Assembly: GCF_016811075.1 (NCBI RefSeq)
Contig: NZ_JAFBGL010000012.1
Span: 1-64,000 of the forward strand
From: Oceaniferula flava
GTDB lineage: Bacteria > Verrucomicrobiota > Verrucomicrobiia > Verrucomicrobiales > Akkermansiaceae
DNA length: 64,000 bases
Direction of reading: 5' to 3'
The notes beneath the pieces were generated by a model, which was given only the letters and a program-made list of their open reading frames with translations, made no database searches and had not been told where the DNA came from. The position numbers were made by a program, and so were the translations under genes. Numbering within the stretch: the stretch's first letter is position 1; the number at the start of each line of letters is the position of its first letter. Of the stretch, positions 23,655 through 36,736 are shown piece after piece.

Positions 23655-23942
23655 TCACTCTTCCCGGTGCTTCTTACGCTCCTCCTTCACCACCGCAGCC
23701 ATATCGTAAATGGCCAGCAGGACGATCATCAGGCCGTAGAACATCGAGGCACCCCACCAGAGAAGAAACAGCCACACACTCCCGCTCAACCAAGTGGCCA
23801 GCGGCCAGGCGCCCAGCACCACCAAAACCAGCAGCACAATCACCAGCTGAAACAGCATCTTCCGCCGCATTTCACGCGAGTGCAGAATCATCCGTGCAAG
23901 TCCCACACACACTGTCGCCCAGCTAGCTCTCTTCTCTGACAT
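23655..23942 (-). CDS. Small membrane protein (two helices)
   Basis: A 95-residue protein with two predicted membrane helices (about 31-52 and 56-80), a basic N terminus (MILHSREMRRK) and a charged C-terminal tail (VVKEERKKHREE). It is transcribed toward the secA terminator and away from serS. I do not recognise a family; helical pairs of this kind often belong to DUF-type inner-membrane proteins. The reading frame looks real because of the clear hydrophobic and charged pattern. Confidence 0.55.
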   Translation of the reverse strand: MSEKRASWATVCVGLARMILHSREMRRKMLFQLVIVLLVLVVLGAWPLATWLSGSVWLFLLWWGASMFYGLMIVLLAIYDMAAVVKEERKKHREE

Positions 23943-24246
23943 CGCGCTGACCTTAAGTTTTCAGTTCCAAACTCCAAATACCAAATCGGAAAAACTTTCG
24001 CGTCTCATCAACGAATCATCCACCCTGGCAAACAATTCGTCCAATTCGCTAGATTCGCGGTCAAGCGCCCCGTGGATGCTGGGCAATAACCCAAGCCACC
24101 TTCCGTGTATTCCGTCGCTTCTGTGGTTCAAAAGCACCACTCAAACCTTGTTTCGCGTAGTTCGCATATTTCGCGGTCAAAAAATTCGTATCATTCACAA
24201 GATTCGTAGTTTCAAAATCGGCCCGATCCGCTATCACTTCCGCGCC
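23943..24246. repeat. Intergenic cluster of 7- and 9-base period repeats before serS
   Basis: This 304-base gap holds no gene. It starts with heptads (23958-23999; TTCCAAA, CTCCAAA, TACCAAA at 23965-23985). Four blocks follow, each of three 9-base units, at 24035-24061, 24100-24126, 24151-24177 and 24084-24110 plus 100, that is 24184-24210. Each block ends in a short CAA- or TTCAAAA-containing tail. Typical units are ATTCGTCCA, ATTCGCTAG, ATTCGCGGT. All blocks face the same way. The last ends about 30 bases before the serS start codon, so the repeats are probably transcribed in its leader. Confidence 0.8.
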
Positions 24247-25521
24247 ATGCTTGATATCAAAGCCATCCGCGAAGACGCCGCAGCCATCAAAGAACGCCTT
24301 GCTACCCGAGGCGGTGATGCGCATTTGCTCATCGATGAAGTGCTCGCCTGCGATGAATCCCGTCGCAGTGCCGAGACCGATAAGCAGCAGCTCCAGTCCC
24401 AGCGCAAGCAGCTGTCCAAGCAAATCGGAGCCCTCATGGGCCAAGGCAAAGCCGACGAGGCCGAAGCCATCAAGGAAGAGGTCCGCGAGATCGGCGAAAA
24501 GATCGCCGCGCTCGATGAAGCCGGTGAAACCGCCGGCAGCCGCCAGACCGAGCTGCTGATGAGCATCCCCAACCTCCCCCACGCCGATTGCCCGGTAGGC
24601 GACAACGAAGACGCCAACCCTGAAATCCGCGTCTGGGGTGAGAAACCTGAAATAGCCGAACCACTCGACCACGTTGCCCTCGCCGAACAACACGGCCTGA
24701 TCAGCTTCGACGATGGCACCCGCCTGACCGGATCCGGCTACGTCGTTTACCGGGGAAAAGGAGCCCGCCTCGAGCGCGCACTCATCCAATTTCTACTCAA
24801 CACCCAGAGTGATGAACACGGCTACGAGGAAGTCAACGTGCCACACATCATCAAACGTGAGTGCATGGAAGGAACCGGCCAGCTGCCGAAGTTCGAGGAC
24901 GACATGTATGGCATCGAGGACAACTCCCTTTTCCTCGCCCCCACCGCCGAAGTCCCGGTGACCAACCTTTACCGCGACACCCTACTCAAGGACGACGAAC
25001 TCCCGATCAAGCTCACCGCCTACACCCCCTGCTTCCGCCGTGAAGCCGGTAGTGCGGGTCGTGACAACCGCGGCATCATCCGCATGCACCAGTTCGATAA
25101 AGTCGAGCTGGTTCAAATCGTCCAGCCGGAGAAATCCTTCGAGCTGCTCGAGGAACTCACCGGTCACGCCGAGGCGATTCTCCAGAAGCTCGGCCTGCAT
25201 TACCGCGTGATTGAACTCTGCACCGGCGACATCGGGTTCTCGTCCACCAAGACCTACGACATCGAAGTTTGGTCGCCCGGACAAAACAAATTCCTCGAGG
25301 TCTCATCCTGCTCGAACTTTGGCGACTACCAAGCGCGCCGGATGAAGCTGCGTTATAAAGACGCCGACGGCAAAAACCAGATCTGCCACACCCTGAACGG
25401 ATCCGGCACCGCGCTGCCTCGTCTTTACGTCGCCCTCATCGAGCAATACCAGCAGCCCGACGGCTCCATCCTCATCCCCGAGGCTCTGGCCCCCTACTTC
25501 GGCGCTGATCAGATCGGCTAA
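24247..25521 (+). CDS. serS: Seryl-tRNA synthetase
   Basis: A class II synthetase that charges tRNA-Ser; 424 residues from the ATG at 24247. The N-terminal long coiled-coil arm (about 30-100, rich in Gln/Lys/Glu heptads) contacts the variable arm of tRNA-Ser. The catalytic domain shows motif 2 (FRREAGSAGRDNRGIIRMHQ), the serine-binding region (SSCSNFGDYQARRMKLRY) and motif 3 (NGSGTALPRLYVALIE). The frame is open 57 codons upstream, but that part is the repeat cluster. A terminator follows within 30 bases of the stop. Confidence 0.96.
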   Translation: MLDIKAIREDAAAIKERLATRGGDAHLLIDEVLACDESRRSAETDKQQLQSQRKQLSKQIGALMGQGKADEAEAIKEEVREIGEKIAALDEAGETAGSRQTELLMSIPNLPHADCPVGDNEDANPEIRVWGEKPEIAEPLDHVALAEQHGLISFDDGTRLTGSGYVVYRGKGARLERALIQFLLNTQSDEHGYEEVNVPHIIKRECMEGTGQLPKFEDDMYGIEDNSLFLAPTAEVPVTNLYRDTLLKDDELPIKLTAYTPCFRREAGSAGRDNRGIIRMHQFDKVELVQIVQPEKSFELLEELTGHAEAILQKLGLHYRVIELCTGDIGFSSTKTYDIEVWSPGQNKFLEVSSCSNFGDYQARRMKLRYKDADGKNQICHTLNGSGTALPRLYVALIEQYQQPDGSILIPEALAPYFGADQIG

Positions 25522-25925: not shown

Positions 25926-26885
25926 ATGAATCTCATCCAAAAAATCAATCTTCGTGGTGCTGCCCTTGGCCTCTCCAGCTTGTCACTGGCAGCAGCTCTC
26001 CCATTGAGCATCACTGACGCCAATGCCCAGAGTCTGTCACCACTATCGGACTACTCCGTAATCGTCTCCGGCGATTTCAGCACCACGTCCGACGTCGAAG
26101 GCCGCACCTTGGTCGGCGGCGACCTCACAGGCAGCAACAGCATGAACCTCGCCATCAAGCTGCAGAACACAGTGGACTCATCCACCTTCACTCTCCAAGT
26201 GGCGGGTGACATTGTTTCCGGAAACTCGATCAATCTGAACGCCGGTAGCATTGAGCTCGGGGGATCAATTTCACGCAACGTCAACTACAACGGTGGCGGT
26301 TCACTGGTATCGAACCCAGGTGTTTCCTACGATGCGATCTTCGCTCAACTCGATGCCGCCAGCTCCCAGCTTTCTGGTCTCGCCTCCAACAGCGTAGCCA
26401 GCTTCCCAAGCAGCCAGCCAGGACCACTGGTCTTCAGCGCCACACCGGACGACGATGGCACTGCTATTTTTTCCTACAGCGGCAACGACATCTTCAGCAA
26501 TAATTACGTGCAACAGATTGAGCTGGACCTGAACTCTGCCAGCACCGTGGTGATCAACGTTTCAGGAACGGATATCGACTGGACAAGTGGTAACATGGTC
26601 GGCTCGTTCACAGACCTCGCGGTGCGTGAGAGCGTGATCTGGAACTTCTACGAAGCTGAAAGCATCGACTTCGGCAGCTACAACATGATGGGGCAGGTCC
26701 TCGCCCCAAATGCCACGGTGACCACCTCCGCTAACATCGACGGTTCTATCTACGCCCAGAACCTCACCACCACTTCGGAAGTGCACCTGCCAACTTACAA
26801 TGGCGAACTGGTTCCGGAACCATCCAGCCTCGCCATGCTCGGCCTCTCTGCTTTTGCCTTCCTGATGCGCCGCAAACGTGGCTAA
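25926..26885 (+). CDS. Choice-of-anchor A family PEP-CTERM protein
   Basis: A 319-residue exported protein. After a signal peptide (about 1-34, cut after DANA) comes a choice-of-anchor-A-type domain: PLSDYSVIVSGDFSTTSDVEG and VGGDL near the start, and NFYEAESIDFGSYNMMGQVLAPNA near the end. It ends in a PEP-CTERM signal: VPEPSSLAMLGLSAFAF, a hydrophobic helix, then RRKRG. Such tails are cleaved by an exosortase/archaeosortase-type enzyme, which is not encoded here, and direct the protein to the cell surface. The gene stands alone between two terminators, with a long AT-rich leader. Confidence 0.92.
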   Translation: MNLIQKINLRGAALGLSSLSLAAALPLSITDANAQSLSPLSDYSVIVSGDFSTTSDVEGRTLVGGDLTGSNSMNLAIKLQNTVDSSTFTLQVAGDIVSGNSINLNAGSIELGGSISRNVNYNGGGSLVSNPGVSYDAIFAQLDAASSQLSGLASNSVASFPSSQPGPLVFSATPDDDGTAIFSYSGNDIFSNNYVQQIELDLNSASTVVINVSGTDIDWTSGNMVGSFTDLAVRESVIWNFYEAESIDFGSYNMMGQVLAPNATVTTSANIDGSIYAQNLTTTSEVHLPTYNGELVPEPSSLAMLGLSAFAFLMRRKRG

Positions 26886-36274: not shown

Positions 36275-36736
36275 TTATTCGCCTTTTTCCTTCAGTTCGC
36301 TCAGCACATCGGACATGTCGCGCAGCTCGTCCCAGACTTCACGGAGGACGTAGATCGGCGCTTCCTGGCGCACGGCCAAGGCCAGGCAATCACTTGGGCG
36401 GGCATCGATTTCCACAATCTTGCGTTCCATGATTTCGTTCTCGGCACTGATCAACAAGCGGGCAAAGAACACCTCGCCTTCGACTTTGATAATGTCGGCA
36501 TGATCGACGTGGCCGCCAAAGGCATCGATGACTTGGGAGAACAGGTCGTGGGTCAGCGGTCGCGGTGGTTTCACCCCGGCCATCACCGCATTAATCGATG
36601 CTCCGATGGCGGGCTCGATGTAAAATACGATGACCTTTTCACCGTCACCCAAGAACACCGCGCAACCAGCCGAGGTGGGCATCAGGGCCACCGGCTCAAC
36701 GCGGACTTTGGCATCTTCGGGTGAATTTTCTAGCAT
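36275..36736 (-). CDS. Bifunctional nuclease family protein (DUF151)
   Basis: A 153-residue cytoplasmic protein with the DUF151 layout: VFLGDGEKVIVFYIEPAIG near the N terminus, then PRPLTHDLFSQVIDAFGG, IIKVEGEVFFARLLI, and VEIDARPSDCLALAVRQEAPIYV. Members have been described as having DNase and RNase activity, or occur with UVR-like motifs. It converges on the CCA enzyme gene (41 bases between). The role in this cell is not clear from its neighbours. Confidence 0.9.
   Translation of the reverse strand: MLENSPEDAKVRVEPVALMPTSAGCAVFLGDGEKVIVFYIEPAIGASINAVMAGVKPPRPLTHDLFSQVIDAFGGHVDHADIIKVEGEVFFARLLISAENEIMERKIVEIDARPSDCLALAVRQEAPIYVLREVWDELRDMSDVLSELKEKGE

Follow-up and report, generated by a model that had tools for sequence, protein, structure and literature searches.

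Blocks of three 9-base units in the serS leader of Oceaniferula flava resemble copies of a dispersed, REPIN/BIME-like mosaic repeat

We report an analysis of four short repeat blocks that lie before serS in a 64 kb stretch of Oceaniferula flava DNA (hereafter, the window) and of their copies in other genomes. On balance, we read these blocks as copies of a dispersed, non-coding, mostly intergenic, REPIN/BIME-like mosaic repeat. The copies are dispersed, lie mostly between genes and are arranged nearly at random with respect to those genes; they prefer three units, carry bases that are specific to the rank of the unit, form mosaic arrays and an excess of inverted pairs, and have changed in number at one orthologous site. 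The dispersing unit would be a block of three 9-base units ending G(C/T)GGT(T/C). In the O. flava genome such blocks would often travel with recurring linkers and other flavours, giving arrays that may be viewed as BIME-like mosaics, and in many other genomes two copies facing away from or towards each other would make an inverted repeat that is hairpin-capable and REPIN-like. We infer that copies move as non-autonomous elements, either through an enzyme acting in trans or through host replication and recombination.

The serS leader is the gap of about 304 bases between a small divergent ORF and serS. It holds, in order, an A block, a likeness of a hairpin word, a B block, a C block and a second A block, and its features are as follows.

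23655 to 23942, minus strand: small divergent ORF of 95 aa, its start marking the edge of the leader; orthologous regions have similar sequence at this place (by eye).
23967 to 23986, plus strand: CCAAACTCCAAATACCAAAT words.
24013 to 24034, plus strand: linker before block 1, GAATCATCCACCCTGGCAAACA (by eye).
24035 to 24061, plus strand: block 1, flavour A (ATTCG units), end GCGGTC; 0 mismatches to the own-genome pattern.
24065 to 24084, plus strand: likeness of a hairpin word, GCGCCCCGTGGATGCTGGGC, resembling the GCGCCCCGCGACTGCGGGGC hairpin word of the arrays on contig C17 (by eye).
24088 to 24099, plus strand: linker word before block 2, AACCCAAGCCAC; similar words stand ahead of several B blocks elsewhere.
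24100 to 24128, plus strand: block 2, flavour B (TTCCGTG units), end GTGGTT; 1 mismatch to the own-genome B pattern.
24151 to 24177, plus strand: block 3, flavour C (TTTCGCGTA-like units), end GCGGTC; 0 mismatches.
24184 to 24210, plus strand: block 4, flavour A, degenerate, adjoining serS; 2 mismatches to the own-genome pattern.
24247 to 25521, plus strand: serS, the gene name coming from reading of the sequence.

A preliminary description of this DNA had placed four blocks here, each of three 9-base units, and direct reading bears this out, with starts at 24035, 24100, 24151 and 24184, all on the plus strand. Block 1 reads ATTCGTCCA ATTCGCTAG ATTCGCGGT, then CAAGCG; block 2 reads CTTCCGTGT ATTCCGTCG CTTCTGTGG (24100-24126), then TTCAAAA; block 3 reads TTTCGCGTA GTTCGCATA TTTCGCGGT, then CAAAAAA; and block 4 reads ATTCGTATC ATTCACAAG ATTCGTAGT, then TTCAAAA. 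The single format that had been claimed for all four holds generally, except that block 2 is of a different flavour (TTCCGTG) and has its GGT one base later. By eye, the GAATCATCCACCCTGGCAAACA linker is similar to those ahead of other A blocks of this genome and ahead of the A block in three relatives (G288, G296 and G300). The CCAAACTCCAAATACCAAAT word repeats at steps of about 7 bases beside the start of the divergent gene, and likenesses of it are seen by eye in most serS leaders of the genus.

The pattern of three TTC at 9-base steps with CAA 4-10 bases later occurs four times on the plus strand of the window, always in the serS leader, and 0 times on the minus strand; dropping CAA adds a single match, at 36278. 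In 2000 dinucleotide shuffles of the leader the pattern has a mean count of 0.002 and a maximum of 1, and Tandem Repeats Finder detects one of the four blocks, with a low score. The start of serS, as judged from sequence, is most likely 24247, because the alignments of its orthologs begin there, and a longer ORF from 24076, which runs through three of the blocks, looks like a mechanical extension of the gene. This bears on annotation, since blocks can lengthen ORFs mechanically, as here, and they also give unrelated genomes shared short sequence. Beyond serS, the region 25926-26885 encodes a protein ending in VPEPSSLAMLGLSAFAFLMRRKRG, which resembles a PEP-CTERM sorting signal.

Further copies are spread over the O. 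flava genome (G000; 3.95 Mb in 51 contigs). The strict block form gives eight entries, two of which are one site read with different tails. The A/C flavours at up to 2 mismatches match 42 places (24+18), against 5 (3+2) for the reversed pattern, and at up to 1 mismatch 25 places (14+11) against 0; flavour B at up to 3 mismatches matches 12 places (7+5) against 0, with three copies identical over 29 bases. A looser scan of 20 stretches of this genome counts 53 blocks where the reversed sequence gives 5. Outside called ORFs lie 41 of these and inside them 12, three of the latter being 3-mismatch matches in two long ORFs and three falling in the over-extended serS ORF. Neighbouring blocks are mostly on the same strand (++ 16, -- 8, -+ 5, +- 0), and the starts of same-strand neighbours are 47 to 67 bases apart in 20 of 24 cases. 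The search for more copies in this genome and in other Verrucomicrobiota that the preliminary description had called for thus yields many in both, and the outcome that would have spoken against it, a lack of further copies, is not what is seen. Its picture of a conserved format with differing units agrees with these copies.

The units of a block could also have arisen in place, as a simple microsatellite or a product of local slippage, and we compared units by rank, using all distinct copies from the loci matched by the strict, A/C and B patterns and only the pattern-free bases of units 1 and 2. For flavour B (10 copies), units of the same rank agree between copies at 0.419 and units within a copy at 0.200; swapping ranks at random gives 0.303 and reaches the observed 0.419 in 9 of 2000 trials. 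For flavours A/C (23 copies) the values are 0.500 between and 0.522 within copies, with 0.464 for swapped ranks and the observed 0.500 reached in 6 of 2000. Unit ranks therefore keep their own identity beyond chance in both flavours, strongly for B and modestly for A/C, and such rank-specific bases favour the view that blocks are copied as blocks. A sharper comparison of units (0.73 vs 0.27), which covered 17 of the 23 distinct A/C copies and left out one of the ten B copies, was rejected as inflated, rank 3 being fixed by the search pattern and flavour A having been picked by eye. Since resemblance within A/C copies equals that between units of the same rank in different copies, some slippage at unit level may have occurred in these flavours, and it could still shape single blocks; the exact 9-base period and the existence of two- and four-unit copies, including a two-unit version at serS in G300, also fit such an origin. 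As an account of the family it is nevertheless hardly credible, given the rank-specific bases, the identical 29-base B blocks at three places and the dispersal across genomes. The earlier statement that this is not a simple microsatellite is supported by the identical blocks at separate places and by the rank-specific bases, with that latitude for A/C.

We find serS in 11 of the 14 genomes of the genus, and by eye a block or a decayed remnant stands directly before it in all 11 orthologous leaders found, the weakest cases being G295, G297, G289 and G290. These leaders span 114 to 304 bases with one to four blocks: those of G299, G290, G289 and G297 measure 114 to 116 bases and hold one block, and that of O. 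flava measures 304 bases and holds four. The arrays at this one site thus differ from each other by blocks. The site is old: the block adjoining serS probably predates the split of the genus, the others having come or gone since. The serS tree joins G292 and G298, which have an A-type block in one and a C-type block in the other at the same place; gene conversion was considered for this difference, which is explained equally well if each lost one block of a C-A array like that of O. flava.

One might suppose that the cluster is a cis-acting leader that regulates serS, such as an attenuator, a T-box-like element or a promoter array. In favour of such a leader, the distance between the last block and the ATG is nearly constant in the 11 orthologs; because this stretch has almost no indels, it may hold a promoter, into which the tail of block 4, which lies in it, may have been taken. 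Against regulation by the blocks themselves, the fold of the serS array is nothing beyond chance (z -0.08), an Rfam search of 23900-24300 returns no family above chance (only a chance snoRNA match, E 2.4), and a pattern scan of the leader shows no promoter or terminator pattern. The same blocks, moreover, lie between other genes, convergent ones too, and their number at serS varies. We consider this explanation very improbable; apart from that possible part of block 4 in the promoter, the cluster probably does little to serS.

Mosaic arrays are the setting in which the blocks of this genome are often met. A linker word, ACCC(C/A)AGC or ACCAAGC, precedes 14 of 44 blocks at a distance of no more than 36 bases, while 27 of 4000 random 36-mers from the same stretches contain it. 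Two related arrays lie near each other on contig C17 and share, by eye, the order B, C, ATTCTGT flavour, GCGCCCCGCGACTGCGGGGC hairpin word, A; one of their B blocks has two units. At another locus of this genome (L051) the blocks are nested as a palindrome, in the order A-, B-, B+, A+, and the array forms a long hairpin (z -13.4). These arrays do not have the unique spacers between identical repeats of a CRISPR array: linkers recur between loci and flavours alternate. In a relative (G004), GTCCACTCTGTCCAC-type words occur at a similar step at about 1380-1480 of locus L071, possibly a further flavour.

The anatomy of copies elsewhere was taken from 154 loci (L133-L286; 1.14 Mb), chosen by exact pattern and several from one genome. 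A 3-mismatch scan finds 286 blocks in them, against 1 in reversed sequence. Neighbours up to 300 bases apart are mainly divergent (60 of 93: -+ 60, +- 13, -- 11, ++ 9), although these pairs are not all independent because of how the loci were chosen. Among terminal units that the pattern did not select, copies have three units in 61 cases, two in 24, four in 4 and one in 104, the last being, by eye, mostly chance 9-mers. In 54 pairs the agreement between arms, taken over variable positions, is 0.69, against 0.46 when shuffled, a difference inflated by the flavour that a genome's copies share. Pair spacers range from 12 to about 120 bases and both inward and outward topologies are present, unlike what a single transposon end would predict. 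A test less affected by this comes from a single genome, a member of Acidobacteria gp4 (G308): the 20 sites fetched from it because they looked paired are inward (+-) pairs, each with a further outer unit. Between arms these outer units agree over 9 bases at 0.778, whereas shuffling the arms gives 0.489 and, in 2000 trials, at most 0.678; agreement at the variable positions within the block (0.725 vs 0.620) falls inside the shuffled range (maximum 0.762), and over the 10 bases beyond GGTT it is 0.300 against 0.399. The gaps within the 20 hairpins (L345-L364) lie near 17, 35, 49 and 56 bases, as if there were few loop sizes.

Matched arms can arise by a known mechanism, quasi-palindrome correction during replication. 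The family might then need no dedicated mobiliser: local duplication with template switching would build the arrays, gene transfer would carry them between species and quasi-palindrome correction would match the arms. The nested palindrome at L051, the arm-matched outer units of G308, the related arrays close together on C17 and the differing block number at serS all sit well with this scheme. It does not readily account for blocks that are almost the same although they lie on different contigs of a single genome, or for a 27-base form common to many phyla, and we regard it as rather unlikely.

Where the copies lie relative to genes was scored with a simple ORF caller, counting only sites with a called gene on both sides. 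Intergenic sites number 110 of the 154 scored, against 1547 of 8587 random positions (18 percent); the other 44 are inside a called ORF, and some of those ORFs look spurious or over-extended. Flanking genes are convergent, divergent and tandem in proportions of.22/.11/.67, close to the.22/.16/.62 of random positions. Sites are nearer to genes than random intergenic positions are, with median distances of 59.5 against 151 to a 3' end and 75.5 against 164 to a gene start. Single blocks between tandem genes are on the genes' strand in 17 cases and on the opposite strand in 31.

Candidates for a mobiliser were sought among neighbouring proteins and known transposases. All-against-all BLASTP of 1112 ORFs from the 154 loci reveals, among the matches listed, neither an autonomous copy nor a neighbour protein that recurs convincingly; the largest neighbour group among them covers 9 loci and appears to consist of ABC ATPases. 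In one phage protein group 4 of 5 members lie within 1 kb of a block, but the query ORF contains translated block sequence, which may account for the match. In the search for empty sites among phages, one protein led to two relatives without the block, one of which has another repeated word there; a second protein gave one distant relative and a third only itself. A RAYT/Y1 transposase as mobiliser is unsupported in the O. flava genome, in the phylum and in six named genomes. A block lies within the flanks of 0 of 7 Y1_Tnp loci in O. flava, and of the 50 matches in five other genomes, 30 loci were fetched, 2 of which have a weak block within 1.5 kb. Y1_Tnp is present in 101 of 109 block-bearing genomes of the phylum and in 112 of 179 others (raw counts over all genome sizes). 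Such transposases are not needed, because block-bearing genomes without Y1_Tnp exist: 8 of those 109, and a Phenylobacterium record with 46 copies. The orthologous-site comparison worked only at serS, two further sites of O. flava having no syntenic relatives in the genus, and it showed neither a clean empty site nor a target duplication.

The range of the family extends beyond the Verrucomicrobiota and, like the inverted pairs and the mosaic arrays with linkers, goes further than the preliminary description did. A search for TTCGYGTNNTTCGYGTNNTTCGYGGTT that allowed up to 2 mismatches succeeded in 109 of 288 genomes of the phylum (78 of 152 genera), with two reversed-control matches seen; one genus of the same taxonomic family (g2) shows no match in its 22 searched genomes. 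The exact TTCGTG form occurs in at least 119 stretches of the genome_contigs collection, in records whose titles name about 14 phyla. The titles of the listed matches include Verrucomicrobiota (with Lentisphaerae and Kiritimatiellae), Planctomycetota, Pseudomonadota, Desulfobacterota, Spirochaetota, Nitrospinota, Bacteroidota, Gemmatimonadota, Latescibacterota, Hydrogenedentota, Cloacimonadota, Bacillota, Chloroflexota and Acidobacteriota, a range that contamination can inflate because most records are MAGs. All 12 named genomes searched whole, each chosen for a known copy, hold 5 to 166 copies with a reversed control of 0; records not titled as MAGs include Thioalkalivibrio denitrificans ALJD (141 copies) and Singulisphaera sp. 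GP187 (19). Strings like the block sequences are presumably common in environmental genomes, and the GCGGTCAAAAA end, we assume, resembles the uptake sequences of Pasteurellaceae.

The commonest form is also present in 35 stretches of the viral_contigs collection, some of which may include host sequence. Four viral contigs hold at least 3 exact copies, often near a start or stop codon (by eye). A 34-base query finds no match in the plasmid record collection and two partial matches, both weak, in the phage record collection; a query of this length says little about absence. In viral contig IMGVR_UViG_3300044477_000284 (L252, L282) intergenic gaps are packed, besides the block, with short repeated words of several kinds, such as AACCGCAACCGA, GGATAATGGATAATGG and CGCAGAGACGCAGAGGCGCGGAG. 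In a related phage (L311, after 3748), GGGATTCGTGACTCGGGATTCG ... CCCGAGTCCCG is a repeated, partly inverted word at the gene boundary that bears an inverted block pair in L309.

The blocks might instead be arrays of sites at which a conserved protein binds DNA or RNA, for example a nucleoid organiser or a global regulator that recognises three steps of 9 bases. Such a protein would account for the preference for exactly three units, for a conserved core amid variable positions, for occurrence in many phyla and for the block or remnant in every serS leader found. It fits poorly with the near-random arrangement relative to genes, convergent gaps included, with flavours that differ between and within genomes, with absence from parts of the phylum such as the g2 genomes, and with array order and linkers that recur along with the blocks; we judge it unlikely.

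Returning to the reading of a dispersed mosaic repeat, a bolder version of it is tentative. The three-step 9-base superfamily, with flavours TTCGTGT, TTCGCGT, TTCCGTG, ATTCTGT and probably more, could rank with the non-coding repeat systems that bacteria share most widely. An undiscovered enzyme or process outside the RAYT group, copying hairpin DNA one block at a time, would then move it between genomes and phages; we hold this to be doubtful. One 27-base grammar lies between genes in records titled as many unrelated phyla and in viral contigs, with no name in the literature searched and no enzyme found, which leaves a testable question: what copies the blocks. The preliminary description knew of no named element of this kind, and sample block sequences are indeed absent as a repeat from the literature searched. 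That search, of work on repeat families in these groups and of sample block strings, met no description, subscription papers and preprints being mostly outside its scope; the sole match to the sample strings was an accidental one of 15 bases in a fish eDNA paper. The family may already have a name.

Several known systems invite comparison. BIMEs are bacterial interspersed mosaic elements, built from REPs in enterobacteria; our blocks likewise combine several types of motif and linkers into mosaics between genes, but their motifs and hosts differ from those of the REP-built enterobacterial elements. MITEs have terminal inverted repeats with target-site duplication, and block pairs resemble them in many genomes as inverted arms with a variable middle, whereas no target duplication or parental transposon was found for the blocks. 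REPINs are REP doublets that form hairpins, with a less conserved spacer and matching changes in both arms, and occur as singlets too (PMC3116915). The blocks are like them as short, dispersed extragenic repeats with frequent inverted, hairpin-forming doublets and arm matching, and unlike them in that a block is a three-step 9-base direct repeat with no REP palindrome and no adjoining RAYT, in that both inward and outward topologies occur, and in that same-strand mosaics dominate the O. flava genome. Inverted hairpin doublets are found for the family at large, but in only 5 of 29 neighbour pairs at O. flava loci and not at serS; the extragenic distribution of REPs and REPINs is shared, and an associated RAYT was not found with the blocks. 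GTAG/CGTC REPs and TIRtrons are interspersed intergenic repeats, reported from the PVC group too (PMC3733652). The blocks share that interspersed intergenic habit and differ in having neither the tag as a defining end nor a palindromic core and in not having been found beside tyrosine transposase genes. By reading, a single block ends GGTT/GGTC and lacks a palindromic core with the GTAG/CGTC tag, and some relatives' blocks end GTAGTT. Because the palindromic, tagged REP and the RAYT are both missing from the blocks, we do not file the family as a REPIN; by analogy, it appears to work like a REPIN/BIME-type element all the same.
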